Under the pieces are notes generated by a model that saw nothing but the letters and a program-made list of their open reading frames with translations, had not been told where the DNA came from and did no database searches. A stretch of DNA of 64,000 bases. Origin: Euphorbia lathyris. Lineage: Eukaryota > Streptophyta > Magnoliopsida > Malpighiales > Euphorbiaceae. Position numbers and translations under genes: made by a program. This document shows, in pieces, positions 1,782 through 47,150 of this stretch. The stretch spans positions 90,343,501 to 90,407,500 of the forward strand of contig NC_088915.1 of the NCBI RefSeq assembly GCF_963576675.1, given 5' to 3'. The number at the start of each line of letters is the position of its first letter. Positions within the stretch are counted from its first letter, which is position 1.

Positions 1782-4428
1782 TCATAAATGCTTCGAGGTA
1801 GTAGTGTTAGAACAACTCGCTGAACTTGAGATTACACTAGGAAGCCGTGTAGTGTTTGGAAGCATGGATGGACAATTCAAACGATTATGACCGATGCTCC
1901 CGCATCTGCTACACCTTGTGTGAATTATATCTTCACCCACGGATGGCCTTCTTTTCTGACCTTTTGGTCGACCAGCAGACCCCCCCTCCTTCTTAGGAGG
2001 AAGCACCTTCATAGGATTCTCGTTCACTTTCCATTCCGATTGGTGACCAAGTGGATATATCGACTCACCCCATGCCAACTTAAGTGACTCGTTGGTGTAG
2101 TAACGATGCACCCACCTATAGGCGTTATCCATCCTATGTTTGGAAGCAACTTTGCATACGTGTTCACATGGAAATTGGGCTAGTTGCCATTTCCTACACG
2201 TACATGTTCCTGCATTTAAATCAACAAGTCCCCCCTTTACCCGATCACCGATTTGATAGGTGTGATTATCCACAGGGAAATACGAACAACGTATTGTTGC
2301 GTCTACACGCTTTATCATCTTTTTTTCCGGTAACTTGGCCAAATACCCCACACGTTCTTCTGCAGAAACATATTAATCTCATAAATAGTTATGTATTATA
2401 TATAAAATAAAAAAAGACACGTTTATAACCTGCTGCTGTACGTCTCTCGTAAAACCATTTCTGTAATGTCATGCGTATGAACTCAACCAACATTGTGATT
2501 GGTAGACGTCTAGCCTCCACCATTAACGTGTTGAATGATTCTGCAACATTCGTGGTGATAATTTTATACCGACGACCACAGAAGAATGCACGTGACCATT
2601 TCTCTTTTCCAGCTTGCAGTAAATAGTCGGCAGCACCGGAATGTAGTAAACAAAGTGTCATAAAGTTTTCCTCAAAATCAGATACCCGATAGGATTTTGC
2701 ACATTTCCAAAATGCCTCATCTATCTTACGAATTCCATGAAATTTGGCCTTCACATTTTGTTGCAGATGACGAGCGCATGCCCCATGTACAACATTAGGA
2801 AAAACTAGATTAACTGCATGTATAATGCTCTGATTTCGATCTGATATAATGGCTAGATCTTCAACATCGTGCAGACACTCTTTCAATTTATTCATAAACC
2901 AAAGCCACGATTCATTACTTTCTTTCGGGCCAACTCCAAATGCAATAGGAAAGATCATTTTGTTCCCATCAATGGCAACTGCAATGTATAATATGCCGGG
3001 ATATTTACCTTTTAGAAAAGTTCCATCGACGGCTATGACAGGTCGAATATATTGTTTAAAACCTCTCAATGAAGCACCCATAGCCATAAAGAAAAATCTA
3101 AATTGATCATCATCATCTGTCTCGATATGTGTCACGGTTCTCAGATTTGTACTCTTCAACATCTCACAGTAGTCCGGTAACAACATGAACGATTCCTCCG
3201 GCGAACCACTCTGCGCTTCCAATGCCCAGTGTCTTGCTCTCCAAGCTTGCATATAAGAGAGATTAACAGAAAAATCTCGTTCAAAGTCGAAAACAATATC
3301 CTTTGGTCGATGCACCCGATTTTCCAAATCAAACCTATTTCGGAGTAGTATCCCTGCAACACGTTTCCCCGCTTGCCTATGGTGCAGACATATCTGATCT
3401 CTCCCACAAGTGTGCGTGTCCATACCATCCATTCTTGAAATCCTGAACAAATTGGAACCTGGAATGACGATCCCTCTAGCCCTCCATTTACATTTGTCCA
3501 CATCGTTACATTTCACCTCAAACAAAGACTTTTTTTATTTGTAAACCTTCCATTCAAACGAATTTTCAATTGCATATTTTCCAAGTGAATCTTGCAATTC
3601 AACTTTGTTTGAAAATATATCATTGACCCTCAAAGTAGTCCCTCCGTTTGATTGCTTAGGTGCAATCATATTCATTGGCGCATCACATGGCTTTGGACAC
3701 CATCGAAATGGATCAGTCATCCTTTTCATTCTATCTTCATCACCATCCTCATATGGGATACGTTGGATGCATTCAGATTGCTTAGCTGTTTCATGAACAC
3801 TTTTAACAGGAATTTCATTCTGAGTGATATCTTCATTCTCCACATTGTCACCATTATCGTAACAATAATCATTATCATAATGCTCATCATAATGATCATG
3901 ATTATCATTATTCAGATAATCATCATTATTGTAGTTCTGATAATCGATACCATTTCCACCATCGTTGTCATCCTTACCATGTATAGGAGCATCAAGTTCG
4001 ACGGTGGGACCATTACTTACTGCTTCCGTTGGTTTGCTTTGACCAACATGTCCATCCTTATTGTTAGGTCGCAATGATGAAGCTTGTATTGTTCGCATGT
4101 TTAGAGTAACGTACAATGGAATCAAATCGGTCGGATTCATTCGGCAATACTCTATGAATCCCATGACATCTCCATCGTCATCAATATGTGCTATCCCACC
4201 GCGCAGTTGATTTGGACCATATGTCGCCTGCATGGACATTTGGAGATCATACGAGGTTGAATCAACACGAAGTGCACCATAAACTTTCTCTTTCAACTTT
4301 TACAAGTCAATCTGTGTTGGCAAAACCAACAACTTCGCTTTACCACCGACGTATGTCATCACAGTTCCCTCTTTGGTCCACAGTCCGTCCCAAGATAAAA
4401 AACACGTACACCTCTCTTTGGTTGACAT
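1782..4428 (-). pseudogene. mudrA-like: mudrA-like MULE transposase, broken by two stop codons
   Basis: This is a Mutator-family transposase, the nuclear enzyme that cuts and reinserts the surrounding element. Reading leftwards from an ATG at 4428, an N-terminal region with a long Asp/Asn-rich stretch (3830-3990) is followed by a MuDR-type DNA-binding segment. The DDE catalytic domain is next (IAVDGTFLKGKYPG near 3040, then SDRNQSII and VHGACARHLQQN). A SWIM zinc finger follows (CTCRKWQLAQFPCEHVCKV, about 2140-2200), then a CCHC knuckle (CSRCGSIGHNRLNC, about 1900-1940). A 70-bp intron fits at 2360-2429 with GT and AG borders that join the frame. Two in-frame TAA codons interrupt it, at 3535-3537 and near 4304. 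Apart from these the frame is long and well conserved, so inactivation looks recent. Confidence 0.85.
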
Positions 4429-5784: not shown

Positions 5785-6441
5785 TATAACTAAACATTGT
5801 CAGAGCTGTTAGGTTATTTTATTTATGTAAGGATAAATAAACGTTTATTTCTCTCAAATGAATTCTTCTTTTCTTCTTTTATTTCACTGTTTCATGTATT
5901 CTTTAACAATTCAATGCAGTTTCGATAATATGCTCAATTCCAAGTTACCCATCGAACCATATTAACATAATAGGAAAATTGTAGGTTGTACTGTATAATG
6001 GACTCATATTTTCAATTCGCGTTTAAATAATTTTTACACATTTTAGTAAAATTATATTTTAACCAGTTATTTAGTAGTAGTAGTATTTTACTAAAAAAGT
6101 GTTATTCACATGCCTCTCTGATGATCTTAAAAGCCAGCTTCGGTTAACAAAGTATTATCCACATGCGTTCAATTTTTTTTTTTTTTAATAGTTCGAAACA
6201 ATTTTTAATATGTATAATGTGGTTATAGAAAAACTGTAACAATCTTATTTCGAACTGTATAAGATGTAATTTCAAACACGGATGAATAACGCTTTTTAAC
6301 TGAAGTGATTTGACAAGCTATATAAAAAATAAATAGTCAAGGGCTTAAAATCAATGACTCAATTCACAAAAAAAAAAAAAAAACAATCAAATTAGGGAGC
6401 TCAACATGCTTTTTTGCCTTTTTTTTTCACCCTTGACTCAT
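5785..6441. other. AT-rich intergenic DNA
   Basis: No gene or clear repeat boundary is seen. It contains poly-A and poly-T runs only. Confidence 0.5.
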
Positions 6442-6981
6442 GGGTAAATTACACCCATGGTAACTGAACTTTACTAATTTTTATCGTACAATCATTAAAC
6501 TTTAAAACATAACATAAAAGTTACCCAATCTAACGCTTTTTAACATTATTGTCATCAAACTTTATTTAACGCCTCAAAATGATTGTTGACGATTTCAAAA
6601 TAAAAATGTTTAAAAATTAAAATTGTTTAGAATGCCATTTATCATAAAATCCTACGTATTTTATTTTCCAAAATCACAAGTTTCTCTCTCTAAAAATTCA
6701 CTTTTTCGCACCTAACCAAACAATATCTAAATAACCTAAAAATGAAAATTTTGAAGAATTAGAGTTTCTTAAAATATCATCAATTCTTGTAATTTTGTAT
6801 TTTGAGGTCATCAAAGGTAATTGTAAAACATTAATTGAAGTTTAGTGTCCATAATATTAGAAATTGTAAAAGTTAAGTTGTTTTTATATTACGTTCTAAA
6901 GTTTAATAGCCATAACTTCTAAAGTTTACTAGCCATAACATGAAATTTGTAAAATTCAGTGGCTATGGGTGTAATTTACCC
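6442..6981. mobile_element. MITE, GGGTAAATTACACC family (540 bp)
   Basis: Inverted ends GGGTAAATTACACCCATGG and its complement close a 540-bp AT-rich element. Relatives occur at 62342-63111 and, as internal fragments, near 20263-20580 and 25480-25740. No convincing TSD was found. The ends resemble those of the MULE-type element at 33448, so it is probably a non-autonomous MULE derivative. Confidence 0.65.
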
Positions 6982-11149: not shown

Positions 11150-11482
11150 AAAAAATTTAAGGAAGTGTCAAAAAATAGTAGCATTATAAACTTAATGTTT
11201 GTAAAATAGTACCAATTTAATTCTCACTAATGGAACATGACATGCCATCCGTTAGGTTCTGCCAACTTAACGTCACGTCCTGATTTTAACATGCCATGTT
11301 CAATAAGGTACCAAAATAGCCCTAAGGTTTATGAGAATCTTAATTTAGATTCCACGTACAAAATAGCACCAATTTAAGCTTAACTTTTACAAAACTGCAC
11401 CAATGTAATCTCAATCTAATGAGTTTTCAGCATGAACTTTTGTGCTCCAACCTGCTCATCCGCTGTATGAGTTGATACGAAG
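11150..11482. other. MITE relic
   Basis: Fragments resemble the 7009/16086 MITE family (TAGCACCAATTTAAG-type text and an internal AACGT/ACGTT palindrome near 11270). No gene is seen. Confidence 0.4.
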
Positions 11483-11876
11483 AAGCTATCTGACCTCTCA
11501 CATCAATATTTAGAATTGGGTGTGGATTTTGGAGATTTTTGAACCAGATCGAATATCTGAAAAAAGATATAGAATTGGATTGAACCGTTGACTTTTTCTC
11601 TATGACTGAACCGAATTGTACCATTGGCTTAATTAGGTACAATTATGAACATTTTCAAATTCTTAATATTATTGAGTACATATGTTGGAGATTCTAGAGT
11701 CGAGCCGAAAATCTAGAAGAAAATATGCAAAATCGGATTGAATCGTTGATTTTTTTGTTTAGACCCAAACCAAATTGTACCATTGACTTAATTAGATACA
11801 ATTATGGAGATTTTAAAATTCATAATATTAAGGTGTTGGAGATTCTGGAACCAGGTCGAATATCTGGCACAATCGG
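11483..11876 (-). repeat. About 2.5 units of the 150-bp tandem repeat, reverse orientation
   Basis: Units contain GGAGATTCT(G/A)GA(A/G)CC, CAAATTGTACCATTGACTTAATTAG and TTAATATT, matching the array at 20870-21975 in reverse complement. The outer edge near 11483-11540 also matches the edge of that array next to the DRM pseudogene (ATTGATGTGAGAGGTCAGA in the other orientation). Its inner edge is joined to the left arm of the palindromic element at 11877. Confidence 0.65.
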
Positions 11877-13416
11877 GTTTTGACAAGCAAAATTAACTTT
11901 AGGCTCAATTCTGTCATGCTAAAAAGCTCATCTATATCTAGGATTAGAGATGATAATTATTTGGTTCGTATTGTGTCAATTTCGGAGTAATGTTAAAATA
12001 AGTCAATTGTAATCCAATTTAAAAAATTTAGAATCAAAATTGTGGTAATCTAATCACGATTAATATCGATTTCATATCGTGCTTTAACTATAACAAATGA
12101 ATTTTTTAAAGATCAATTTTGGAGAAAAATTTGAGTTTTGATTGTAGGAGTTGATTGGGGTTGATTGAGAGTTGATTGACATTTGGAATGGAGATTTGAG
12201 GTCCCAATTATAGCTAAAATCTTCAACCTTCATGCAAATATGACTAAATTTAATATGATTAAGCTTACCATAAAAATTGTATGGCTATATTAAATATATT
12301 TGACCTAACATAAAGATTGAGTTGAAAATCACATATTGGGAGGCTAATATTCAAAATAAATTACTAATTACTAATATTCAAAATTAACAACTTTCTATCT
12401 CTATATAAGGACTCGAGCTTTCTTGTTAGGTTTCATATCTTCTCCATCTGCATTTTATAGACATTTCTTTTTTGCAATTCGTTCAAGCAAACTATATAGT
12501 AGCTCCATAGATACTGAAATGATTGATGCATATATGATTGATGTGGATATGGTTGAAGTTGACATGGATGACACTGTTATGATTGACATCGCCATGGATG
12601 ACACTGTTATGATTGATATCGCCATGGATGACACTGTTATGATTAATATCGCCATGGATTATCAATCATAACAGTGTCATCCATAACAGTGTCATCCATG
12701 GCGATGTCAATCATAACAGTGTCATCCATGTCAGCTTCAACCATATCCACATCAATCATATATGCATCAATCATTTCAGTATCTATGGAGCTACTATATA
12801 GTTTTCTTGAATGAATTGCAAAAAAGAGATGTCTATGAAATGCAGACGGAGAAGATATGAAACCTAACAAGAAAGCTCTAGTCCTTATATAGAGATAGAA
12901 AGTTGTTAATTTTGAATATAGTAATTAGTAATTTATTTTGAATATTACCCTCCCAATATGTCATTTTCAACTCAATCTTTATGTTAGGCCAAATATATTT
13001 AATATAGCCATACAATTTTTATGGTAAGCTTAATCATATTTAATTTAGTCATATTTGCATGAAAGTTGAAGATTTTAGCTATAATTGGGACCTCAAATCT
13101 TCATTCCAAATATCAAACAACTCCCAATCAACCCCAATCAACTCCTACAACCAAAACTCAATTTTTTTCTCCCAAATTGATCTTTAAAAAATTCATTTAT
13201 TATAATTAAAGCACGATATGAAATCGTTATTAATCATGATTAGATTACCACGATTTTGATTCTAAAATATATAAATTGGGTTAGGATTGACTTATTTTAA
13301 CATTACTCCGAAATTGACACAATACGAACCAAATAATTATCATCTCTAATCCTAGATATAGATGAGCTTTTTAGCATGACAGAATTGGGCCTAAAGTTAA
13401 TTTTGCTTGTCAAAAC
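11877..13416. mobile_element. Long palindromic element, copy 1 (arms about 770 bp)
   Basis: The sequence from GTTTTGACAAGC at 11877 is mirrored as an inverted copy ending GTCAAAAC at 13416, with almost no loop (centre near 12646). Each arm carries a TATA-like CTATATAAGG (12401-12410; inverted at 12883-12892) pointing to the centre. Towards the centre, each arm then has a short open frame ending in 30-bp tandem repeats that read MDDTVMIDIA. The two arms thus encode the same Met/Asp/Ile-rich repeat peptide in convergent orientation. Copy 2 is at 40677-42465. No transposase or known family is recognised; this may be a fold-back transposon. Confidence 0.7.
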
Positions 13417-14664
13417 CCGGTTGATTGGATGCAGAACTAAACTATATTTAATTAGATAAAATTGTCTATGTAGGGTGGCAATAGGAAGACGATTATCTGA
13501 AAACCACAGGTATCCGAACTGATGGGGACGGGGAATATCTAAAATAAGTGGGAATGGGAACGTGATATATTTTTTCCCTGAAACCTAAATGAAGATGGGG
13601 ATGAAGATTATTATTTTTTATTTTTGTTAATTTTTATGTTGTAAATTTTATTTGTTTAATTATAGTTAACTTTAGTTAAATTTTTATTTTGTTTAATTTA
13701 GTTTAATTAAATTTTTATTTTGTTAATTTTAGTTAGGATTGAGCAGGCTCCACCAGTTAGGACTGATCTGGAGCAGATTATGGAGGAATGGAACCAAGCG
13801 AATTGACTTGTTGTAATTTTTTAATATTTAGAATTCTTTAATTTGGTATATCTAAAATTCTATTTAATTTGGTTTTCCTAATTAGAACATGAATTAAAAA
13901 CTTCGTCTTAAATGAATTCTACTAAGAACATGATTATAATTTTAAACGTATATAAGCAATGATTGTTTGCTTATTTATTTTGCATTGAGAGTTTTGGAGC
14001 TTGCACTTTTGCGATATACATACATTTGAGAGAAAATAAAATATTATTATCAAATTTAACATTTATATTAAATTTAATGCGTTAAATTTTTCAAAAAATG
14101 TTAAGGTATGTATATCGAGATTGTTAAGGTATGTATATTATTATTAAATGTTAAGGTATGTATATACATACCTTAACATTTAATAATAATATACATACCT
14201 TAACAATCTCGATATACATACCTTAACATTTTTTGAAAAATTTAACGCATTCCTTCCGAGTTCGTTTCGTTCAATTAGCCTCCTAAACTTGCGCAAAATG
14301 TAATCAATTGATCCATCGGTTGCAAAATAGTAAATTAAATACGAAAAATGTATTGCACGCGTCTTAAAAAAAGCAAAACGACCAAGATCAGGAGTGTACG
14401 ACTTTAATATTAGCGAAGATAAGTTTTATAGTTGAACAAGTAATAACTTCATTTTTACTCTATTTTTGAATTATGTAATAACATTCTAAGATGCGTGCAA
14501 TACATCTTCCGCATTTAACTTATAGTTTTTACAAACAAAGGATCAATTGATTATATTTTGCGCAAGTTCAGGGTACTAACTAGACATTTTATGCAAGTTC
14601 AGGGGGCTATCAATACACTTTGAAAGTTCAGAGGGCAAATGAACATGATTTTGACTAAATTGAT
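13417..14664. repeat. Block shared with 42366-43524
   Basis: Starting from the palindromic element, this stretch is near-identical to 42366-43524. It includes a GGATGGGGACGGG-like tract, a short less AT-rich piece (CAGGCTCCACCAGTTAGGAC, about 13745-13790) and a MITE relic ending TTTGAAAGTTCAGAGGGC. Together with the palindrome it forms a duplicated block of about 2.7 kb. The match ends at TTTTGACTAAATTGAT in both copies. Confidence 0.75.
14076..14251. repeat. Perfect 176-bp palindrome
   Basis: The sequence is a perfect inverted repeat centred between 14163 and 14164. It includes three copies per side of TTAAGGTATGTATAT-type text. All mirrored positions I checked agree without gaps. The paralogous copy at about 43015-43085 has only the right half. 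Confidence 0.85.
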
Positions 14665-16883: not shown

Positions 16884-19800
16884 AAAGCGGCCTAGGAAGC
16901 AGCCCGAAGCAAGCGATCCCAACTAGGTTGGCACCCCTTGACAACAAGCGAACCCCTAGCCAATATTATTAAGAAGAAGAAAAGAATTACAGATGAATGA
17001 AAGAATGAAGAAACCCCTAGGTGAAATGGTAAGCCGTTCGACCACTTAAATTACAAAAATAGGACGTTGTGCTGAAGACCGGGATTGTTTCCCACCATTC
17101 AGTTCCGGAAGCCGTTCTGCCAAAATTAGCCAAATCGTTTGCCACCTGGTTCCCTTCCCTATAAACATGAGAGACCACAAAACTCATTTGATCCAAATAA
17201 GATAGGCACTCCAACCAAGCCTGTCTGATACGCCAAGGGACTGACATCTTACGCGATCTAAAAATCCCTACTACGTACGTGGAGTCACTTTCGAGCCAAA
17301 GTCTAAGCCACCCCCTATCAAAAGCAGTTTTGACCGTGAAAATCGCAGCTCTTAACTCAGCCACAAATGCAAGATCTGCAGCCATCGGGAAGGCGAAAGC
17401 CGACACAAAGAGACCGTGGTGGTCCCTGAAGATGCCCCCGCAACCCGTAGACTCGCCAATCACCGAAGCATCGGTATTCACCTTTAACCAATCCTCAGTT
17501 GGGGGCTGCCATTTGACCGGGATTATACGAGGCGCCAATGACGGCCTTCGCGTTATATCTAACTCGGAGAGGATGCGACACTCTATGACAGAATTCCAGA
17601 CATTCCCAATTCCCAGCCGAGCTGCATCCTTTACCGCTAACCAAACCCGTCTCAGAGTCCCAGAAACACACGGTTTAACATCATTGAAAGTAAGATCGTT
17701 GCGAGCAAGCCAAATGGACTAGATCGTGTTTACCACCGCCGCTCCCCAAAGAGGGTTAATCTGAGAGCTGAATCGTTGTTGTGCAGCAGCCCCTGGCAAT
17801 TCCAAAATCGTCAAATGCAGGTTCAGATCACGACCAAATAGGGAGGCCACCCCATGCCATATTGCTCTTGAGAAGGGGCATTCGATAAACAGGTGCTCTG
17901 AAGTTTCATATGCTGCAAAGCAGAAACAGCAGTGCGAGGTAATATAAAGACCCCTCGATCTCAGCCTATCGTGCGAAGGAAGGTAGCCAAGTGCTGCTCT
18001 CCAGCAGACAAAAGAATGGGACGGAAGAATAGCCGGGGACCATATAAAACGGCACCAGATGGGTTCGATCTGTGCGTCCAAAAGCCATCTGTAAAACTTC
18101 CTGACAGTGAACTGACCATCCACCGCCGGCTCCCAGACACATCTATCATGCGTATCCCTCCCGCGCCGAACTGCACGAATCCGAATCTCAGTTTCCTCTG
18201 ATACAGGAAGGCTCCGCCAATCCTCACCATCCATAAAATGCTCAACGTTGAGAAGTTTCAAGTCACTGCTGACAGATTCCATATCTGCAGAAACCGACGG
18301 TTTTATCCAACCCCCAAACCAGAAATTTAAATGAGAATGTTTACCGATCCACCATAAGCAGTTTTCAGCCAAGTCCCCGTAGATCCTTTTCACCGAGCTC
18401 CAGATGGAAGAGTTGGTAATCCAGTTCTGTGGTCTCCCAGCAGAGTCCAGAAAACGAGCACGAAGAAGGTTGAAGCAAAGGGAGTCCCCCTGCATTATAC
18501 CCCAAGCTGCTTTCCCCAGTAGCGCAGCATTTAAAATGCCTAAGTCTTTGATACCCAAGTCCCCCTCCTTGAAAGGCCTGCAACATAACCGCCAAGGAAC
18601 CGTTACAAGTTTCCGATTGACCGTAGAACCAATCCATATGAAGTTTCTCATACTCTTTTGCATATGACTGAGCAGCGAGTGGAGCCATTTATAAAGGATA
18701 AAGCTATGGATAAATGAGCCAGTTATAATAGAGTTGACAAGAGCCAAGCGACCGGCGAAAGACAGGCTATCTCCTTTCCATTTAGTGAAATTGGCGAGCA
18801 CCTTATCCATAAGACCCCTAAGCAGAGTCGAAGTGGGGCTACCAGTAAACAGCGGAATACCAAGATATCGAAGAGGGAAGGTTCCGATCCCAATTCCAAT
18901 CCTATCTGCTAATCTGCTTGCGCGGTGAGCTGCAACGGAGGAACTGACGAAAAGATCCGATTTCTGCCAATTTATGTGTTGTCCTGAAATTGAACCATAC
19001 AAGTCAAACGCATTCCCCAGGGAAGTAATATTATTAATAGAAGCCGCTCCAAACAGCAGCAAATCGTCCGCGTAGAGCAGGTGAGTTGGGAAGGACACAC
19101 TGCCAGAGTACTGCATCGGACGTAGCTTGCCCTCTCGCACAAGGTTCGACAGATACCGGCTGAGAAAGTCTTCAGCAATGCCAAACAGGATTGGAGAGAG
19201 GGGGTCTCCCTGCCACACCCCACGTGAACAGCTAAAGAACTTACAATTTGCATCTCCCGTTAAAACCGAGATCCGCGAAGATGTTAGTAAGTTGAGGATC
19301 CACTGTCTAAATTTATCCGAAAACCCAAAAGCATCAAGCACCAACATTAAGAAACCCCAGTTGAGAGTGTCAAAAGCCTTCCTAATGTCAATTTTCATGC
19401 ACATATTACCTCCAAAGCATCTCTTCTTTAGCAAGTTCACCCCTTCCGAAGCAATTGCAGCACATTGATGTATACTTCTGCCTGGGATAAAACCAAACTG
19501 ATTCTCAGAAACAATATTAGTCGAAATGCTGGCTAGACGTTCCGCCAGAATCTTATCAATCAACTTGTACCCAAAGTTGCTCATGGCAATTGGCCGGTAT
19601 CGATCAATTTTCATAGCACTTTGTGTCTTAGGAATTAAAACCATATTGCTAGAGTTCAGACCTGGGAACATCACACCCGTCTGAAAGAAATCTTCAACCA
19701 TATTGCAGACATCCTGACCCACAATGTCCCAGTAAGTCTGAAAAAAGGAACCCGTGTAACCATCCGGCCCGGGAGCACTGCTCTTGTCCATCCCGAAAAC

Positions 19801-20262
19801 AACCTCCCTAATTTCTTTCCTATCCGGACAACGAATAAGACTCTCGTTAAGCTGTCACCACCTTGATAATTTCATATACCTTATCAAAACTACGACCCGC
19901 TGTATGATCCTCTTTGAAGAGGTCCCCATAGTACTCAGAAATGTGTGAAGAAATTATCTCCTTGTCCGTGACCAGCTCACCGCCGATTTCCATGACTGAT
20001 ATGCCATCAGTCGCACGTTTAACCGCCGCCATTCGATGAAAGAAGGAGTTGTTGCGGTCCCCCTCTTTCAACCATCTAACTCTACTTTTCTCTTTCAGAT
20101 AGATTTCTTTCCTCAGAAGAGCGGTGTCCAGCGCAGTATGGGCCACAAGTTCTCGATGATGAAGAGTCGGCGAGAATTCCTGTTCTGCTAAATCTGTCTG
20201 AACCTGAGCTAAGGAGGTTTCAGCCTTAGCAATCCCCTCATCCAACAGCCCAAAGACCTCAA
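16884..20262 (-). mobile_element. L1-type LINE, 5' truncated
   Basis: On the minus strand the element runs from about 20262 to a short A-tract (T7 on the plus strand at about 16871-16877). It contains the C-terminal two-thirds of a plant LINE ORF2 and a 3' UTR of about 130 bp. It is much richer in GC than its surroundings. It is inserted in a relic of the GGGTAAATTACACC MITE family: text such as CCGTTAACGA on one side continues as CCTCAAAATTGAAAAAT on the other. ORF1 and the endonuclease are missing. Confidence 0.85.
17017..20262 (-). pseudogene. LINE ORF2: reverse transcriptase, zf-RVT and RNase H
   Basis: This is the replication protein of a plant L1-like retrotransposon. In order: a linker region (19847-20245, with KEKSRVRWLKEGDRNNSFFHR); the reverse transcriptase (about 18700-19800) with SSAPGPDGY, the F(G)FIPGRSIH block, WQGDPLSP and the catalytic YADD; a zf-RVT zinc-binding domain (about 17850-18030, WRAALGYLPSHDRL and an SEHLFIECPFSRAIW end); and a C-terminal RNase H (17017-17538, VNTDAS, AELRAAIF, ESDS, YREGNQVANDLA). 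Breaks: a frameshift near 19855 and one in-frame TAG at 17719-17721, where the family normally has Trp. With its 5' end also missing, the copy cannot be active. The reading frame is otherwise long, so insertion is not ancient. Confidence 0.85.
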
Positions 20263-20869
20263 AATTGAAAAATGGAAATTTTAAGAATTAAAATTGTTTA
20301 GTAGTACATTTACTATGAAACCAAATTTTTTATTTTCCAAAATCATCATTTTCGGAGCTTGCTCTCTTTAAACATTCACTTTCTTCCTCCTCACCAAACA
20401 ACACATAAATGACTTTAAAATTGAAAAATTAAAGTTGTTTAGAATATCATCAACTCTTTGAATTTTTTAATTTTAATTTTGAGATCCTTGTTTTTAGTAA
20501 AACGAAAAACCTCAATCATCTCCCTGTCGCACACGAAAATCTCAGCACCACTTTGGACAATTATTATGATAAATAACAGTTTAAAAAAAAATTTGCACAT
20601 TGTTTTTTTTTTAATTTACCCTAAATGGATTAAATGAATAAATTGAAAAGTTAATTTCAGTAAACTATTCTTCATTATGAATAAACATATATAAAAAATG
20701 AACCCGTATGTTTCTCCACCTGACGCCATGGTAAAAAAAAAAAAAACTAAAGTTAACCGGATGAAATAGTGAAAATAGCATTAAGTGTAGAATATCACAA
20801 TTAATCCTTGAATTGCAGAAACTCTGCACAAGCATATACAAAGGAGGTGATTAATGGATAATGGTTAGT
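20263..20869. other. MITE interior relic
   Basis: The text resembles the inside of the 6442-6981 MITE (ACCAAACAACA.ATAAATGACTTTAAAATTGAA). It is the other half of the relic that received the LINE. No gene is seen. Confidence 0.45.
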
Positions 20870-21975
20870 ATGGTTCGGTACAATTGGGAAATTTGAAAAT
20901 TTCTAGAATTGTATTTAATAAAGTCAACAGTACAATTCGGTTCGGTCTCTAAGAAAAAGTCAACAGTTGAATCCGGTTCTGGATCTTTTTTCTTCTTCAG
21001 ACATTCTGTCTGATTTCAGAATCTCCAACATATTTACTCAGCAATACATGAATTTAAAAATCTCCAGAATAGTACCTAATTAACTCAATGGTACAATTCG
21101 GTTTGATCCTAAAAAAAGTCAACGATTCAATCCGGTTTTGGATATTTTTTCTGGTTCGAGAATCTCCAACATATTTACTCAGTAATAGTAAGAATTTGAA
21201 AATCTCCATAATTATGCCTAATTAAGCCAACAGTACAATTCGGTTTGATCCTAGAGAAAAAGTCAACAGTTCAATCCGGTTCTGTATCTTTTTTTTTCCC
21301 GGATATTTGGCCTAGTTCAAGAATCTCCAACATATTTACTAAGTAATATTAGGAATTAGAAAATCTCGAAAATTGTACATAATTAAGTCAAAGGTACAAT
21401 TCGGTTCGACCATAGAAAAAAGTAAACAGTTCAATCCGGTTTTGGATCTTTTCTTTCGGATATTCAGCATGGTTCCACAATCTCCAACATATTTACTCTG
21501 TAATATTAAGAATTTGAAAATCTCTAAAATTGTACCTAATTAAGTCAACTGTACAATTTGGTTCGAGTCAACTGTTCAATCCGATTGTTTTTTTCCAGAT
21601 ATTTCGGTCTAGTTCAAGAATATCCAACACGTTTATTCCTTGAGTTTAGGAATTTGAAAATCCCCATAATTGTATCTAATTAAGTCATGTACAATTCAGT
21701 TCGGGTCTAAAGAAAAAAATCAATGATTCAATCCGATTTTGGATCTTTTCTACGGATATTCGGCTCGGTTCTAGAATCTCCAACATATTTACTTAGTAAT
21801 ATTAAGAATTTGAAAATGTTCATAATTTTACCTAATTAAGTCTATTGTACAATTCGGTTCAGTCCTACAGAAAAAGTCAATGGTTCAATCCAATTCTGTA
21901 TCTTTTTTTCAGATATTCATGTCCAAGATCCACACCCAGTTCTAAATATTGATGTGAGAGGTCAGAGACCTTCTT
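20870..21975 (+). repeat. Tandem array of about 140-160 bp units
   Basis: At least seven diverged units are present. The anchor AATCTCCAACATATTTACT(C/T)(A/T) recurs near 21021, 21162, 21322, 21480, 21620 (variant) and 21776. Each unit also has a TACAATTCGGTT(C/T)(G/A) block and a TCAATCCG(G/A)TT block. The array ends at ATTGATGTGAGAGGTCAGA and abuts the left arm of the DRM inverted repeat. A short inverted cluster of the same units is at 11483-11876. No coding potential is seen. Confidence 0.75.
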
Positions 21976-22085
21976 ATCTGAGCTCTCTTCTCATTCTCTT
22001 TCTGACGATCTTCTATAACAGCAAAATTCAAAAAACGCAACAGGCGATTTTCTCTGAGCTCTCATTTCTGTTTTATCCAATTACA

Positions 22086-23084
22086 ATGGCAGTTTCTGGA
22101 GACACAGGAGGAGGAGGAGGAGGACTTAAAGGCTTGCTTACGTCTATAGAACTAGAGAGATATATTCACAATCTTCCTATTCATGGCAAGTTTCCCATTT
22201 TTCCAAGTCCTCCACTGACCATACATGAAGCACTACCAATGACAAAGAAATGGTGGCCTTCATGGGACACGAGAACGAAATTAAATTGCCTGAAAACAGT
22301 TAGTCGGAGCGCGAAATTGACGGACAAAATTGGTGAAACTGTTGGGGGTTATGAAGGGGAACCTCCTTTGAGTGTCCAGAAATCTGTTCTTGAGCAGTGC
22401 AGAAAATACAACCTCCTACGGATTGGAAAGAAAAAAGTTGCACAGCTTCAGCCTCATGAGATAGAACTCATTCTTGGTTTTCCTCAAAACCACACAAGAG
22501 GGGGTGGCATGAATCGGACTGATAGATACAAATGGCTTTCCAACTCATTTCAGGTAAGATTTATGCATTTGCAAATAGGTTTTTATTGTTTAAGGCTTTG
22601 CTAAACCGTCTAAAGGTGTCATTTACCCATAGCATTCCACTTGTTCTCCAATCTAATATATGGTTTTTAAATTGATAATTTTTTCAGATTGCTACAGTTG
22701 CATACCATTTATCAGTACTGAAAGGCTTGTTTCCAGAAGGTACGAATGTGTTGTTGTCTCTATTCTCAAGAATAGGAGGGGCAAAAGTTGCTCTTCACCG
22801 TCTGGATATTAAACTGAATAATGTAGTGTCAGTGGAGAAGTTGGAAGCCAACAGAAACATAGTGAAGTCCTAGTGGGAAGAAACCAAGCAGTAAATTAGA
22901 GGAATTTATTCAATTATTTGGAGGATTCGATCTGATAATCGGTGGAAGTCCATATAACAATCTTTCTGGTAGCAATCGAGTTACTCGTACTGGTTTAGAG
23001 GGAGAACAATCTTCACTTTTCTACGACTATTGGCGAATTTTGGATACTGTGAAACATATTATGACAAAAAATGCAAATAATTGA
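22086..23084 (+). pseudogene. DRM2-like: DRM-type DNA methyltransferase pseudogene (left arm)
   Basis: The parent is a plant domains-rearranged methyltransferase, the nuclear de novo cytosine methyltransferase of RNA-directed DNA methylation. This copy keeps only the catalytic part: a short new N-terminus (MAVSGDT plus a Gly run), then the family blocks TIHEALPMTKKWWPSWDTRT, RKYNLLRIGKKKVA and NHTRGGGMNRTDRYK. An intron follows (22554-22687, CAG|GTAAGA ... TTTCAG). The next exon holds motif I (LFSRIGGAKVALHRL, usually LFSGIGG) and the region around the catalytic Pro-Cys. Damage: the N-terminal UBA domains are absent; a Trp is now TAG near 22872; about 45 bp is lost after it; and the catalytic Cys is Tyr (GGSPYNNL). 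It ends at its normal-looking stop. The arm cannot make active enzyme. Confidence 0.85.
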
Positions 23085-23300
23085 ATTATTGTTTTTGTTT
23101 TACAGGCATTCATCAGAATTAGTTTGTTGAGATGATTAAAAATAATTTCAATACTATATCTTTATCCAGCATTAGAAAGAATGATCTCTAAAATGAAACT
23201 TGGAGCATTAATATGAATCAAATTTTGCTTATTTAAATAAGTGTTTGTACACTTCCAATCATTTAATTCTGATGAATGTCTGTAAAACAAAAACAATAAT

Positions 23301-24346
23301 TCAATTATTTGCATTTTTTGTCTTCATAATATGCTTCACAGTATCCAAAATTCGCCAATAGTCATAGAAAGTTGAAGATTGTTGTCCCTCTAAACCAGGA
23401 CGAGTAACTCGATTGCTGCTTGAAAGATTGTTACATGGACTTCCACCGATTATCAGATCGAATCCTCCAAATAATTGAATAAATTCCTCTAATTTAGCTT
23501 CTCATAAATTTTGGACATCTTCTAAATGTATCAAATTCCCAGTCTGCTTGGTTTCTTCCCACCAGGACTTCACTATGTTTCTGTTGGCTTCCAACTTCTC
23601 CACTGACACTACATTATTCAGTTTAATACCCACACGGTGAAGAGCAACTTCTGCCCCTCATATTCCTGAGAATAGAGACAACACATTCATGCCTTCTGGA
23701 AACAAGCCTTTCAGTACTGATAGATGGTATGCAACTGTATCAATCTGAAAAAACTATCAATTTAAAAACCATATATTAGATTGGAGAACAAGTGGAATGC
23801 TAGGGGTAAATGACACCCTTAGACGGTTTAGCAAAGCCTTAAATAATAAAAACCTATTTGAAAATGCATAAATCTTACCTGAAATGAGTTGGCAAGTGAT
23901 TTGTATCTAACAATCCGATTCATGCCACCCCCTCTTGTGTGGTTTTGAGGAAAACCAAGAATGAGTTCTATCTCATCAGGCTGAAGCTGTGCAACTTTGT
24001 TCTTTCCAATCCATAGGAGGTTGTATTTTCTGCACTGCTCAAGAACAGATTTCTAGACACTCAAAGGAGGTTCCCCTTCATAACCCCCAACAGTTTCACC
24101 AATTTTGTCCGTCAATTTCGCGCTCCGGATAACTATTTTCAGGTAATTTAATTTCGTTCTCGTGTCCCATGAAGGCCACCATTTCTTTGTCATTGGTAGT
24201 GCTTCATGTATGGTTAGTGGAGGACTTGGAAAAATGGGAAACCTGCCATGAATAGAAAGATTGTGAATATATCTCTCTAGTTCTATAGCTGTAAGCAAGC
24301 CTTAAAGTCCTCATCCTCCTCCTCCTCCTCCTCGAGAAACTACCAT
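23301..24346 (-). pseudogene. DRM2-like: DRM-type DNA methyltransferase pseudogene (right arm)
   Basis: This is the inverted partner of the plus-strand copy at 22086-23084, with the same exon-intron-exon plan. It retains features the other arm has lost: SWWEETKQ with both Trp codons, the segment NLIHLEDVQ that is deleted there, and the catalytic Pro-Cys (GGSPCNNL). It has its own lesions: stops and frameshift in the Gly-rich start, a TAG replacing Gln in SVQKS (near 24053), and another stop after DVQNL. UBA domains are also absent. A TATA-like TATATATAA lies about 145 bp upstream of the ATG. Since neither arm is a simple copy of the other's damaged state, both have decayed after the duplication. 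Confidence 0.8.
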
Positions 24347-24484
24347 TGTAATTGGACAAAACAGAAATGAGAGCTCAGAGAATATCGCCGGAAAGAGAAT
24401 GAGAAGAGAGCTCAGATCAAAAGGTCGTTCCTCTGAATTTTGAATTTTGCTGTTACAGAAAATCGCAAAAAAGAGAATGAGAAG

Positions 24485-24500
24485 AGAGTTTATATATAGG
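24485..24500 (-). promoter_or_regulatory. TATA-like box upstream of the right DRM arm
   Basis: CCTATATATAAACTC reads on the minus strand about 145 bp before the ATG of the right-arm pseudogene. It is followed by a duplicated pyrimidine-rich leader (TCTCTTCTCATTCTCTTT, twice). A transcript starting here would cross the right arm, the spacer and the antisense of the left arm. Its activity is unproven. Confidence 0.4.
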
Positions 24501-26010
24501 TGAAGGAAAGAAGGGAGAGCGAGAGAATTTATTCAAAGGGGTATTTTTGAATTGGGTAAATTACAATATTAACCTTGTAACTTCAATTCTTAAATTAGGA
24601 AAATTAACATATTTACCCTGTTTGAATTAGGAAATTAACATATTTAAAAATTATTTACATCTTTTGAAAAACAATATTTACATGAGTCAAACCAAAAAAT
24701 CATCAGTTTCCATATTTAAAAATTATTTACATCTTTAAAAAAAATATTTCCATATTTAAACGAAGTCAAACTAAAAAATCATCATTTTCAATATATTTTA
24801 AGGACTATATTTATAAATTAAAAGTTTATGATATATTTTTTTAAAGTTAGAATTTATAAATTGTAATGTAAAATTAATAAATTAAGGTATAATATACATT
24901 ATTTATTTTGTAATATATAATAAATAATGATATATTTAGAATTAAATTTTATGATATTATGTAATTATAATTTTTATAAATAATGTGAGTTTCATGCAAT
25001 CAATTTAAAGAATTATTGGTAAATGTTCGGAAATCAAATTTTATATAAACATTAATGGTTTAATATATTATTCGTGTTCCTAACTTGTCCCTGTAGCCCC
25101 TCAATTTTCATAAAATAATTCTGTTACCATAACGATTTAACAGTTTAAAAATCTGTTTTAATCACCATAAATGATAGCCAAGAAGACCAAATTGTCAAAT
25201 AGAGCTAAATCATTAAAGACCATTTTGATTTAATGATAAACATAAAGGGATAAGGTGAAATATCTAATGTATAAAATGTTACAATTTTACCCAAATGTTA
25301 GCAAGTTGGGTCAATTTCACACATCATAAAACACAGATATTGTGTTCCTCTTATTCTGCACCAATTGCATAACCATTTTTTCTATAAAAAAAAAAATCAT
25401 ATTTCTTGTTATTTAATTAGTAATAGAATTGAAGATTAATATTTTTTGTTCATTTTGAAGTCATTTCGGTGTTGTTTGGTTAGGATAAAGTGAATTTTGG
25501 GTGAGAGAAATATTCAGAAATGGTGATTTTGAAAATAAAAAATGGGTTTCATAGTAAATGTTGTTCTAATTTTAATTATTTAATGTTTCTATTTTGAGAT
25601 CGTCAACAATGATTTTAAGGTGTTAGTTAAAGTTTAATGATCATAATATTAAAAATGTAGTATTGACTGGTTTTTATATTACGTTTTGAAGTTTAGTGTT
25701 AATACCGTGAAAATGAGTAAATTTATTGGTCATTGGTGTAACTCACACATGAATTAAGGATAAAAAAAAAGGCAAACAACATCTTGAAGTCCCTTATTTG
25801 AATTTTTTTATTCATTAAAACACTAATTTTTTATTTAGATACATTAAGTTTGTGTTTTTTTTTTGTAATATTAAGTTACTGTTTGTCAAATTAATTCAAT
25901 AAAAAAATGTTATTTATTTCCTCTGTATTTGGAATTTATAACTCGAAATAAGGTTTTTACAAATTTTCTATAACCACATTACACATATTAAAGTCTGTTT
26001 TTCGGAACTG
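24501..26010. other. AT-rich DNA with MITE relics
   Basis: No gene is present. A relic of the 7294 family lies at about 25245-25390 (ATGTTACAATTTTACCC, TTGGGTCAATTTCA). A relic of the 6442 family lies at 25480-25750, ending GGTCATTGGTGTAACTCAC. The remainder (24560-25040) is simple A/T-rich sequence. Confidence 0.45.
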
Positions 26011-31139: not shown

Positions 31140-33447
31140 CAGACTTTGATTCCTAATCATAATCTCACATTTTTTCAGCAACCGATCAACGATTAAAAAA
31201 AGCTAGAAACTAAACACGAGGTATAAGGTGCAATTTTACTTCTAATGTTCGCAGCTAAGAGCAATTTTACTAATAATGTTGATAAGTTGGGTCGATTTCA
31301 GACATTATTATAAAATACATATATTTCGTTTTTTACTCTCCACCAATCTATAGATTCCCTGAGGTAAATGTACTTAACCTCCCTTTCCGTCATTATGACC
31401 ATTGTCCTATCCTGGTAAAGTCGGTTAAAGGCATTAGGCTTAAAGGAAACAGACCTTTCAGGTATCTTGTTGCTTGGGATTCTCATCCTGAGTTTAAGAA
31501 CTTTGTCAAAGATAATTAGCTTCCTCACTCTGATGTTCTCCGTGCTGCTGAGGGGTTCAGGAGGAATGTGGAAGGGTGGAATAAAAACATCTTTGGCCAC
31601 ATTATCAGAAGGAAGAACAATCTGTTGAGAAGGATGGAAGGCACTCAACGTTGTTTGGAGATCCGTCCACAATCTTAACTGTCATCTCAGATCCCTTCAA
31701 AACGAGTTGGAGGCTGTTCTTAGACAGGAAGAGCTTCTTTGGTTCCAGAAATCTTGGAAGGCTTGGATTAAGGATGGGGATCGGAATACCAGGTTCTTCC
31801 ACCTTTCTACGATTATCAGGAGACAGAGAAACATGATCGATGCAATTAAAGATTCCAATGGTGTTTGGATTTTTGAGGAAGAAGATATCCGGCGGGCTAC
31901 CCTCGAGTTCTACAAAGACCTCTTTAAAGAGGATGTAGTGGACTTAATGGGTGCCCACTCTGGGATTTCCTTTCCTAGATTAGGGGAGGAAGTTATTAAG
32001 GAAGCTTTCCAGCCTGTTGACCTGAAAGAAATCGATCGGGCTTTCTCTAGTATCGGCTCCACTAAGGCTCCGGGGATCGATGGTATTCCTGCTAGTTTCT
32101 ATCAGAAACACTGGGACGTTGTGAAAGAGGGTATTTACAACTTTGTGTTAGGTGTTTTTGGTGGTTCCACTAATATTAGGCTGGTTAATAAGACCCTCCT
32201 AGTTCTGATCCCGAAAGTTGATAAGCCTTCCTCATTTCTTCAGATGAGGCCTATCAGTCTTTACAATGTGCTTTATAAAGCTATCACTAAGATTGTGGCT
32301 AATAGAATCTGGCGTATCCTCCCGGATATTATTAGCCAGAATCAAGGGAGTTTTGTTCCAGGCAGGCAAATGATGGATAATGTCGTTATTGCCCAGGAGA
32401 TGGTCCATTCCATGAAGATAAAGAAAGGTAGGAAATGGATTGTGGCTCTCAAGCTGGACTTAGAGAAAGCCTATGATCGATTGAACTTGAGCTTTCTTCT
32501 GGATAGTCTGCTCAAAGCTGGTATCCCTGAAAACTGGAGGAAGTTAATTGAGAACTGCATTTCTTCTCCTACTTTCCAGGTTATGATTAATGGAGATATG
32601 TCAGATGAGTTTTCCCCCTCCAGGGGAATTCGCCAAGGTGATCCGATGAGTCCCTTCCTGTTTGTTATTGCTATGGAAAGATTGTCTCACCTGATCCAGG
32701 AGGCGGTTAGCAAGGGTCTACTCCACCCCGTTTCCATCAATAAACATTGCCCTCCTATCACCCACTTATTCTTTGCTGATGATGTGATGCTTTTCGCTGA
32801 AGGATCAGAGGATCAAATTAGTATGGTGATGGATATCCTTAATTGCTTCTGTATCGCGTCTGGCCAGAAGATTAATATCCAGAAGTCTCGGATGCTTTGC
32901 TCTAAAAACATGAATATTAGCTTGAGCATAAGACTTAGCAATCTCTCCGTATTCCCCTTACTCAGTCCTTGGGTAAGTATCTTGGGGTTCCTCTTCTTAG
33001 TGACAGAGTCTCTAAAGCTTCTTTTAAAGATACTCTGCATAAAGCCAACGGTTTGTGTGCTAGTTGGAAAGCCAATTCCCTTTCGCTTGCCGATCGACTT
33101 ACCTTAATCCAGTCTGTCAATTATGCGGCTCCAAACCATATTACGCAAGTCTGTAGGCTCCCTGAGCCGGTTCTCAAAGATCTTGATAAAATCAACCGGC
33201 GTTTCCTTTGGGGAGATTCTGGGAGTGGGAGGAAGGTTCACCTGGTTCCTTGGAAGGAGGTCTGCCAACCGAAGAGCAAGGGGGGCCTTGGCATCAGGCA
33301 AGCAAGAGATAACAACAAGGTCCTCTTGATGAAGCTTCTCTGGAGAATGTGGCAATGTCATTCCTCTCTTTGGGTTCGTCTTCTCTGTGGTAAGTATCGG
33401 AAAGATAAAGTTTTTGGTGGCCCTAAGGAGAAAGTTGTCAATTGTTC

Positions 33448-39878: not shown

Positions 39879-40676
39879 GTCGCCAAAGCACTTGGTAATT
39901 TTATTGCGTCCTATGTGTCTGCTGACCCGAAAAACACCTAGTCAAATGTGCAAAGCTTCCTGAGAATTAAAGTTTGCATTGATATCAGAAAACCAATACA
40001 GAAAGAAAAGAAGGTAAGGAAGGCTGGGGGAGAATGGATGCTCTGTACTTTCAGGTACGAAAAAATCCCAACATTTTGCTTAATTTGTGGTCTGATTGGT
40101 CACCTGGACAGGCACTGCGATATGGTAATCAGATTATGGGCAGGCATTCCTAAGAGCACCGGTTCGAAAACAGAATCTGTTAGGAGGTGAAAAGTGGCTC
40201 AGAGAAGAAACAGTAGTAGGCAGCTCATCGAATACAAATGCTCAAGGGGACAGAACCATGGCATTGTCAGAAATCAGGCCTACGGTCCCTCATAGGCAAA
40301 ATCTGCATCACTTTGCCAAAAACTTCGGAACTAGTATCTTCGATTCAGGTACGACTGGTACAGAGGCGAAGGAAAATATCCCACCTGACCAAGGATTGGA
40401 GTTTACTGATGACATGAAAAGGAGAAGGGGGGGAAGCGATGGTGAATTGTGTCAAGTAGACCGGAAAAGCACCTCAGAACATGCAAGTGGACAGTGTGAC
40501 GCCTACAGCTGAGGGAATTAACTTGAATTCAACCTCTTCTTCAACTCAGGCAAAGGGGCAGCTTTACAAACATGCACGACTGAAACAACAATTAAGGCGA
40601 ACCAAGAGGTTCTCCCACCATCATGATCATCCTCAACTGGAACTGCCAAGGGCTGGGCAACACCAAGGCATTTCCT
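39879..40676 (+). pseudogene. LINE fragment: ORF1 C-terminal half and first codons of ORF2
   Basis: The plus strand reads the DUF4283/zf-CCHC_4 nucleic-acid-binding part of a plant LINE ORF1: VAKALGNFIASYVSADPKNT, a TAG, then RIKVCIDIRKP, GGEWMLCTFRYEKIPTFCLI and a zinc knuckle CLICGLIGHLDRHC. A frameshifted low-complexity C-terminal part follows (40258-40620). ORF2 then starts at 40623 with MIILNWNCQGLGN, the beginning of the apurinic-type endonuclease. The element stops at about 40676, where the palindromic element begins; no continuation was found on the far side. The nonsense codon, frameshifts and loss of ORF2 make it dead. Confidence 0.75.
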
Positions 40677-42465
40677 ATTCCCCGTCCCTATCAGTTCGGA
40701 TACCCGTGGTTTTCAGATAATCGTCTTCCTGTTGCCACCCTATATAGACAATTGTACCTAATTAAATATAGTTTAGTTCTGCATCCAATCAACCGAGTTT
40801 TGACAAGCAAAATTAACTTTAGGCCCAATTCTGTCATGCTAAAAAGCTCATCTATATCTAGGATTAGAGATGATAATTATTTGGTTCGTATTGTGTCAAT
40901 TTCGGAGTAATGTTAAAATAAGCCAATCCTAACCCAATTTAAAAAATTTAGAATCAAAATCGTGGTAATCTAATCACGATTAATATCGATTTCATATCGT
41001 GCTTTAACTATAACAAATTAATTTTTTAAAGATCAATTTGGGAGAAAAATTTGAGTTTTGATTGTAGGAGTTGATTGGGAGTTGATTATAGCTAAAATCT
41101 TCAACCTTCATGCAAATATGACTAAATTAAATATGATTAAGCTTACCATAAAAATTGTATGGTTATATTAAATATATTTGGCCTAACATAAAGAATGAGT
41201 TGAAAATGACATATTGGGAGGGTAATATTCAAAATAAATTAATAATTACTAATATTCAAAATTAACAACTTTCTATCTCTATATAAGGACTAGAGCTTTC
41301 TTGTTAGATTTTATATATTCTCCGTCTGCATTTGATAGACATCTCTTTTTTGCAATTCATTCAAGAAAACTATATAGTAGCTCAATGGATACTGAAATGA
41401 TTGATACATATATGATTGATGTGGATATGGTTGAAGCTGACATGGATGACACTGTTATGATTGACATCGCCATGGATGACACTGTCATGATTGATATCGC
41501 CATGGATGACACTTTTATGATTGATATCGCCATCCATAACAGTGTCATCCATGGCGATATCAATCATAATAGTGTCATCTATAACAGTGTCATCCATGGC
41601 GATATCAATCATAACAGTGTCATCCATGGCGATGTCAATCATAACAGTGTCATCCATGCCAGCTTCAACCATATCCACATCAATCATATATGTATCAATC
41701 ATTTCAGTATCCATGGAGCTACTATATAGTTTTCTTGAATGAATTGCAAAAAAGAGATGTCTATGAAATGCAGACGGGGAATATATAAAATCTAACAAGA
41801 AAGCTCTAGTCCTTATATAGAGATAGAAAGTTGTTAATTTTGAATATTAGTAATTATTAATTTATTTTGAATATTACCCTCCCAATATGTCATTTTCAAC
41901 TCATTCTTTATGTTAGGCCAAATATATTTAATATAGCCATACAATTTTTATGGTAAGCTTAATCATATTTAATTTAGTCATATTTGCATGAAGGTCGAAG
42001 ATTTTAGCTATAATTGGGACCTCAAATCTCCATTCCAAATGTCAATCAACTCCCAATCAACCCCAATCAACTCCTACAACCAAAACTCAATTTTTTTCTC
42101 CCAAATTGATCTTTAAAAAATTCATTTCTTATAATTAAAGCATGATATGAAATCTATATTAATCGTGATTAGATTACCACGATTTTGATTCTAAAATTTT
42201 TAAATTGGGTTAGGATTGGCTTATTTTAACATTACTCTGAAATTGACACAATACGAACCAAATAATTATCATCTCTAATCCTAGATATAGATGAGCTTTT
42301 TAGCATGACAGAATTGGGCCTAAAGTTAATTTTGCTTGTCAAAACCTGGTTGATTGGATGCAGAACTAAACTATATTTAATTAGGTAAAATTGTCTATGT
42401 AGGGTGGCAACAGGAAGACGATTATCTGAAAACCACGGGTATCCGAACGGATGGGGACGGGAAAT
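40677..42465. mobile_element. Long palindromic element, copy 2 (arms about 860 bp)
   Basis: The left arm begins near 40677 (CCCCGTCCCTATCAGTTCGG) and the right arm ends near 42465 with its inverse. The arms are longer than in copy 1 at 11877-13416, whose left arm is cut at GTTTTGACAAGC and joined to the 150-bp repeat. TATA-like boxes face inwards at about 41280 and 41815. The central 30-bp repeats (ATGGATGACACTGTTATGAT core) number about three on the left and four to five on the right. The two arms again read the same Met/Asp/Ile repeat peptide convergently. Confidence 0.7.
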
Positions 42466-43524
42466 ATCTAAAATAAGTGGGAATGGGAACGTGATATATT
42501 TTTTCCCAGAATCCTAAATGAAGATGGGGATGAAAATTATTATTTTTTATTTTTGTTAATTTTTATGTTGTAAATTTTATTTGTTTAATTATAGTTAATT
42601 TTAGTTAAATTTTTATTTTGTTTAATTTATTTTAATTAAATTTTTATTTTGTTAATTTTAGCTAGGATTGAGCAGGCTCCACCAGTTAGGACTGATCTGG
42701 AGCAGATTATGGAGGAATGGAACCAGACAAATTGATTTGTTGTAATTTTTTAATATTTAGAATTCTTTAATTTGCTATATCTAATATTCTATTTAATTTG
42801 GTTTTCCTAATTAGAACATGAATTAAAAACTTCGTCTTAAATGAATCCTACTAAAAACATGATTATAATTTTAAACGTATAAATAATGGTTGTTTGCTTA
42901 TTTATTTTGCATTGAGAGTTTTGGAACTTGCACTCTTGCGATATACATACGTTTGAGAGAAAATAAAATATTATTATCAAATTTAACATTTATATTAAAT
43001 TTAATGCACTCTTGTGATAATAATATACATACCTTAACAATCTCGATATACATACCTTAACATTTTTTGAAAAATTTAACGCATTCCTTCCGAGTTCGTT
43101 TCATTCAATTAGCCTCCTAAATTTGCGCAAAATATAATCAATTGATCCATCGGTTGCAAAAAAAGATAAATTAAATACGGAAAATGTATTGCACATGTCT
43201 TAAAAAAAGAAAAACGACCAAGATCAGGAGTGTACGACTTTAATATTAGCAAAGATAAGTTTTATAGTTGAACAAGTAATAACTTCATTTTTACTCTATT
43301 TTTGAATTATGTAATAACATTCTAAGATGCATGCAATACATCTTCCGCATTTAACTTATAGTTTTTTACAAACAAATGATCAATTGATTATATTTTACGC
43401 AAGTTCAGTGTACTAACTAAACATTTTATGCAAGTTCAGGGGGCTATCAATACACTTTGAAAGTTCAGAGGGCAAATGATGTATTAAGCCATTAATACGT
43501 GAACATGATTTTGACTAAATTGAT
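42466..43524. repeat. Block shared with 13500-14664
   Basis: This is near-identical to the downstream flank of palindromic element copy 1. It has indels: it lacks the left half of the 176-bp palindrome (14076-14163) but contains about 20 bp (ATGTATTAAGCCATTAATAC) missing at 14640. No gene is seen. Confidence 0.75.
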
Positions 43525-46340: not shown

Positions 46341-46610
46341 ATCACATGACCTAGAAAATGAGGATCGACTCTCTGTTTTCAGCCTAATAATAGCTGGCTT
46401 TTATAGCATTGTAATCTTAGTCCATATTAAAGTTGGGCTTTGTTTGGAAATCTCAGCCCATTTCTTTTTTCTTATACGCATGGATGTGTTTCCTTTTTAA
46501 CAAATGGTTAATGAACTATGGCAAAAAGCATTCTCAGTCCCTAATGTTACTTTTGATTTATTAAACTCTTGATCATTATTAATCATTTATTTTTGGCTTA
46601 ATACATTTTT
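46341..46610. other. Short unassigned stretch
   Basis: No gene is supported. The text around 46360-46490 is less AT-rich and includes GACTCTCTGTTTTCAG, an acceptor-like site, without a recognisable exon after it. Confidence 0.3.
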
Positions 46611-47150
46611 GGGATAATGTACAAAAATATCAGTAACATTTATATGCAGGAGCAGTTTTATCTTTAACGTCTAAAATTGTGCAATTTTATCCTAACGTTG
46701 ATAGCTAAGAGCAATTTTACTCCTTAAAATTGAGACATTATTATAACACACATATATTTTGTTATTCTGCACCAATTGTATACAGTTCGTTGAAAAAAAG
46801 ATTTGATCTTTTCTATGATTTAATAATAGAATTGAAGATTAAAATTTATAAATTCGGTGAAATATTTTGAATTTTTTATCCAACTCGTACAATAGCAGTA
46901 TATTTTTTAATTTATTTTTTAAAAAATTAACGTTTAATCATATGTTTATGATCTGTTACTAACGAATGATAAAATGACTCACATGTGAAGTTTAGATGAC
47001 AAGATTAATGACCGAAAAGGCATTTTGATGAATTATTTCTCAAATTGACTCAACTTGATAATGTTGGGGGTAAAATTGTTGTTGACTGCAAAAGTTAAAG
47101 GTAAATTTGCACCATTTTAAACGATAAGGGTATTTTTGCACATTATCCCT
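46611..47150. mobile_element. MITE, 7294 family
   Basis: Ends GGGATAATGTACAAAAATATC and GGGTATTTTTGCACATTATCCC are inverted. The interior has the usual CTAACGTCTAAAATTGTGCAATTTTA and TTTATGATTTAATAATAGAATT-type blocks. It is about 540 bp. Confidence 0.7.

Follow-up and report, generated by a model that had tools for sequence, protein, structure and literature searches.

Two inverted copies of a short DRM-type gene

The window, by which we mean the whole 64,000-nt stretch of DNA that was analyzed, contains a DRM inverted repeat at 21967-24496, in which a DRM-type methyltransferase gene is present twice, with the copies arranged tail to tail. The locus and its immediate flanks comprise the following features.

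20269-20473, plus strand: dispersed-repeat fragment in the left flank of the DRM pair, with a related copy at 6196-6803
20890-21966: tandem array with a unit length of about 157 bp, reaching to about 21918, followed by a tail that abuts the left arm
21967-23121, plus strand: left arm, a broken short DRM-type gene (ATG 22086, exon 1 22086-22553, intron 22554-22687, exon 2 from 22688)
23122-23263: spacer separating the DRM arms, 142 bp
23264-24496, minus strand: right arm, the counterpart of the left-arm gene (ATG 24346, exon 1 24346-23879, exon 2 from 23744)
24489-24498, minus strand: TATATATAAA, a candidate TATA box following pyrimidine-rich sequence, on the outer margin of the right arm
25449-26000, minus strand: dispersed-repeat copy, inverted, in the right flank of the DRM pair

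Self-BLAST places the inverted arms at 21967-23121 (plus) and 23264-24426 (minus), with an additional inverted pair of 59 bp at their outer ends (21975-22033/24438-24496, 86%). The left-right match scores 1589 bits, whereas 50 third-order Markov randomizations of the right arm reached no more than 31.9. In the alignment over 22043-23121, 54 of the 1076 columns differ, an identity of 95.0%, which bears out the long inverted duplication of a DRM-type gene proposed in an earlier note. The high identity claimed there stands, with 95.0% over 1076 columns in place of about 96% where compared, and the spacer is as short as described, measuring 142 rather than 144 bp. The arms also differ by indels: 47 bp are missing from the left arm and each arm has one 3-bp gap, while a 39-column gap corresponds to a repeat in the 5'UTR of the left arm. 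Because each arm has its own changes and indels, with derived residues in both, an assembly fold-back is an unlikely source of the pair.

Each arm holds a complete short gene, with a 5'UTR, an ATG, exon 1, a 134-bp intron at the same position, exon 2, and a stop codon. The arms had previously been taken for catalytic-domain pseudogenes; their DRM homology and broken state hold, but each is an entire short gene and not just a catalytic fragment. This anatomy, together with a promoter-like sequence at the right arm only, is what is new beyond that first reading. The 134-bp intron-like interruption is kept in both arms with splice-site borders, and the possibility of a processed, RNA-mediated copy was rejected on that account. 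When its stops are read as X, the right arm hits the tobacco DRM (NtDRM) chain 4onj with an E of 2.7e-130 and the Arabidopsis DRM2 (AtDRM2) chains with an E of about 1.6e-109. The alignment is colinear, query residues 23-297 falling on 79-353 of 4onj and residues 23-296 on the AtDRM2 chains, and the catalytic domain of the arms follows the rearranged motif order of the solved DRM chains. The left-arm exon-1 frame taken alone matched no Pfam family at 1e-3.

Neither arm has an open reading frame with the catalytic PCN. The right arm keeps PCN and has five in-frame stops; in the left arm exon 1 is open and is followed by a TAG and the 47-bp deletion, and PYN replaces PCN. The UBA domains, which lie in the N-terminal half of DRM, are absent from both arms. 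As only 25 codons lead from the ATG to YIHNL in both, the N-terminal half was lost before the duplication.

To place the duplicated gene among known DRMs, we compared protein identities. Each arm is 69% identical to NtDRM (right arm 186/268, left arm 175/254), and NtDRM is 70% identical to AtDRM2 (190/271). The inferred ancestor of the arms shares 74% of residues with NtDRM (196/266) and 64% with AtDRM2 (170/266), figures that lean upward, as sites differing between the arms were resolved towards DRM. At 31 of the 190 sites conserved between tobacco and Arabidopsis, change had already occurred before the duplication. Lone differences among NtDRM, AtDRM2, and the ancestor fall on AtDRM2 at 39 sites, on the ancestor at 31, and on NtDRM at 13, and with these counts the notion of an unusually divergent duplicated gene was withdrawn. 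The ancestor outpaced tobacco DRM in its rate of change but did not exceed Arabidopsis DRM2; although truncated, it lies within the range of functional DRMs from distant plants. Because of this position, both candidate sources fit, and the arms could descend from the regular DRM of the plant or else from a side copy.

Decay of the arms and their repeat-rich surroundings

Both arms have drifted as pseudogenes, and at a similar pace. Between them Ks is 0.054 and Ka 0.048 (Ka/Ks 0.89, binomial p 0.85), from 9.5 synonymous and 29.5 nonsynonymous differences over 272 codons, and the 26 differing residues in the aligned core divide into 12 left-derived, 10 right-derived, and 4 ambiguous. Identity is 96.3% in the intron, 94.4% in exon 1 (95.6% without the GGA tract), and 94.9% in exon 2. 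The differences are spread as at random, the longest identical run being 81 bases (p 0.55), and with this placement recent gene conversion in part of the arms is unsupported. Given this Ka/Ks and an intron conserved to the same degree as the exons, neither coding nor pairing shows signs of selection in the arms. Since the N-terminal half was already missing and the arms drift neutrally, the locus bears no signature of a maintained regulator. Substitutions accumulate at about 7e-9 per site per year, and at that rate Ks gives an arm divergence of about 4 million years, a date that is only indicative.

The breakage of both arms, their similar pace of change, the identities of intron and exons, and the random placement of differences all speak for an inert relic, that is, an untranscribed inverted-duplicate pseudogene in a repeat-rich region with no small RNAs of consequence. 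We regard this explanation as quite possible. It also draws on the presence of two other long palindromes, which means that long inverted repeats are not rare in the window.

These palindromes, at 11870-13423 and 40676-42466, are 93% and 91% self-complementary (BLAST) and about 92% alike over 2.2 kb, with a common right flank reaching to 14642 and 43479. They look like a foldback repeat family unrelated to DRM. A perfect 176-bp palindrome without a spacer lies at 14076-14251, and a related sequence at 43017-43085 matches one arm only; a recent template switch and an assembly artefact are both possible sources of it. The block of about 157-bp units abuts the DRM arm and the palindrome at 11870 in opposite orientations. 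Beside the left arm it is a separate repeat, since 21595-21975 recurs inverted and without DRM at 11480-11867 (83% over 398 columns).

The flanks bear in turn on whether the locus is transposable-element cargo, an element having captured a DRM gene in parallel to the CACTA elements that carry miR820 in rice. Copies of the dispersed repeat flank the locus in inverted orientation, 77% alike over 154 columns, and the window contains a MULE transposase at 1782-3534. However, the same repeat also sits at 6196-6803 without DRM (71% to the right-flank copy and 72% to the left), so the flanking copies fit independent insertions, and any terminal repeats, outer ends, and target-site duplication of the putative element would have to be read from one copy with an adjoining LINE. 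We consider capture by such an element highly improbable.

Several other features accompany the locus in the window. The MULE transposase occupies two minus-strand frames with MULE, Transposase_mut, and SWIM domains (Pfam), and the frame beside it at 3535-4299 matched no Pfam family. LINE reverse-transcriptase frames lie at 17017-19854 and 31629-33107, with RVT_1 in both and zf-RVT and RVT_3 in the first, which adjoins the left flank of the DRM locus. An exon frame at 57020-57967 is diterpene-synthase-like, its best PDB matches being labdadienyl and ent-copalyl diphosphate synthase; it matched no Pfam family and has a CpG observed/expected ratio of 1.18. The H/ACA snoRNA snoR109 is found at 45209-45313 (Rfam RF01206, 68.8 bits), adjoined by tandem units of about 148 bp at 45354-46044, with no second snoR109 match in 44900-46700. 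A kinase fragment is also present, and a tRNA scan returned no tRNA. The LINE and MULE genes, the diterpene-synthase-like exon, and the DRM homology are all in keeping with plant DNA. In comparison with viral contigs, three stretches matched a pattern, none of them a relative, and a 29-base stretch had no exact match.

Base composition gives a further, equivocal view of the arms. Their CpG observed/expected ratios are 0.48 and 0.39, against 0.77 for the window, and rank at 10% and 3.5% among 630 sliding windows. Such low values would fit past CG methylation, a fit that falls short of proof. CpG was not taken to prove methylation, as ratios of 0.40 or less occur in 20 of 595 windows of 1.1 kb outside the locus and CAG/CTG is not depleted in the arms (observed/expected 1.35 and 1.27, window 0.99).

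One-sided promoter-like sequence and predicted hairpin

The minus strand at the right arm presents, in order, a pyrimidine-rich stretch, TATATATAAA at 24498-24489, the 5'UTR, and the ATG at 24346. This promoter-like sequence sits on the outer margin of the paired region, and the 59-bp pair extends into it. A promoter-like sequence beside the 5'UTR was found only at this arm. The left-side scan, which covered the left arm and the adjoining repeat block as far as 21900 (21900-23121, either strand), contained no TATAWAWA. The left arm loses its 5' end at about 21967, where it meets the tandem-repeat block, and the right-arm 5'UTR is fuller. TATAWAWA occurs 147 times across both strands of the window; the box alone is therefore weak and counts only with its context. 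A TATA-like box and a 5'UTR at the expected place in the right arm weigh against an inert relic, as does the status of transcribed inverted repeats of genes as known small-RNA sources, according to the portions of PMC12371187 and PMC3203196 that deal with such loci.

Transcription starting at the right arm would cross both arms and form a hairpin. The spacer (23122-23263) has no AATAAA on either strand, and the next minus-strand AATAAA motifs past it, at 22910 and 22587, both lie within the left arm, so even early polyadenylation would leave a stem of roughly 210-530 bp. For a minus-strand RNA running from 24470 to 21967, the predicted minimum free energy is -1931 kcal/mol, compared with -591 to -605 kcal/mol for three mononucleotide shuffles. 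In the predicted fold, the right arm (23264-24426) has 1077 of its 1163 bases paired to the left arm, a near-continuous duplex in agreement with the previous suggestion that a transcript across the locus would be a long hairpin. The fold includes 16 helices of at least 21 bp, amounting to 875 bp with G-U pairs included, and one third of the left-arm 21-mers (372/1135) are exact in the right arm. Hairpin RNA from inverted repeats can enter Dicer-like processing without the help of an RNA-dependent RNA polymerase, and the RNA predicted here is a plausible Dicer-like substrate.

The reading that we favor, tentatively and a little short of calling it probable, is that of a young inverted-duplicate pseudogene that could give rise to hairpin siRNAs directed mainly at itself. 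The starting point would be a short DRM-derived gene, N-terminally truncated and equipped with a promoter of its own, that was duplicated in a tail-to-tail inversion; both copies would then have decayed as pseudogenes. In the left copy the promoter end may have given way to the tandem-repeat block, so that the right arm alone retains a recognizable promoter-like sequence, on its outer side. Minus-strand RNA would run through the right arm, the spacer, and the left arm before folding into the long hairpin, and the resulting siRNAs would mainly act on the locus itself and on near-identical copies of the truncated gene. We favor this sequence of events because the inverted arms are 95% identical and have a common gene anatomy and intron in a tail-to-tail layout like that of PAI1-PAI4; because of the predicted fold, the AATAAA-free spacer, and the promoter-like sequence and pyrimidine-rich 5'UTR at the right arm only; and because of the Ka/Ks and the low CpG of the arms relative to the window. 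Counted against it are the abundance of TATAWAWA, the limited share of exact 21-mers, the low CpG elsewhere in the window, and the undepleted CAG/CTG.

Alternatively, as the earlier note proposed, hairpin siRNAs may target the functional DRM gene in trans and thereby tune RNA-directed DNA methylation. The predicted DRM-derived duplex exceeds 1 kb, nine stretches of 7-11 residues keep every NtDRM residue in one or other arm, and the inferred ancestor is as near NtDRM as functional DRMs are to one another. There is also precedent, both in the repression of OsDRM2 by miR820, as portrayed in sections of PMC3459959, and in the inverted-duplicate small-RNA loci SULF and YUP, as presented in part of PMC12371187. 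On the other hand, protein identity of the arms to NtDRM is about 69%, and a sign of selection on pairing is missing from the arms. Control of a working DRM gene is possible, with rice as a precedent; as an account of this locus we judge it unlikely.

Comparison with known inverted-repeat systems

Among the top literature matches listed, none reports a long DRM-derived inverted repeat. In subject, the nearest precedent for the DRM pair, and one that the earlier note does not mention, appears to be miR820, which is carried in CACTA transposons of rice and represses OsDRM2 from a foldback that possibly derives from OsDRM2 itself, exon and intron sequence included, according to the relevant text of PMC3459959. 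The same text describes differences: miR820 has a short miRNA-type stem and belongs to a transposon family, and cleavage of OsDRM2 mRNA was shown. The DRM pair, in comparison, has a predicted 1.1-kb stem and is seen in one copy. Rfam gave no family match in 21900-24560 (E up to 1), and the comparison with miR820 is one of description.

The likeness raises the prospect that a DRM-derived hairpin keeping the plant's own DRM in check arose a second time, independently, as a young, long-hairpin counterpart of miR820, perhaps at a stage preceding a miRNA gene and operating as a pseudogene-siRNA feedback loop. We think this quite unlikely, even a shade more so than trans silencing as such. If the hairpin were expressed and reached DRM, derivatives of DRM would have come to repress it on at least two occasions, in rice with miR820 and in this lineage by way of a long inverted repeat. 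De novo methylation would then be under self-derived control as a recurring theme, and a possible miRNA precursor would have been caught at an early stage. If the locus acts only on itself, it would still offer a natural test, open to dating, of the decay of inverted-duplicate pseudogenes and of whether methylation is drawn to them.

In layout, the DRM pair resembles the Arabidopsis PAI1-PAI4 locus of the Ws strain, which in the account given in portions of PMC3203196 is likewise a tail-to-tail inverted repeat of two gene copies that transcription enters from one side, an entry that is predicted for the DRM pair. At that locus PAI1 is functional and is driven by a heterologous upstream promoter, as the same portions relate, whereas neither DRM copy is intact and the promoter-like sequence seems native to the gene. 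Maize Mu killer, an inverted gene duplication of about 1.3 kb for which a hairpin RNA was proposed, is similar in kind and differs in that its target is a transposase gene and its silencing was shown, as reported in passages of PMC3440606. Data in those passages favor short antisense transcripts over a hairpin, a caution for hairpin models.

Small-RNA loci have also emerged from incomplete or inverted gene duplication, with SULF in Antirrhinum and YUP in Mimulus as examples in the pertinent parts of PMC12371187; these differ from the DRM pair in having known target genes and, for SULF, in being under selection. More generally, about 39% of annotated Arabidopsis pseudogenes match at least one small RNA, by the figure given in an extract of PMC1820830.
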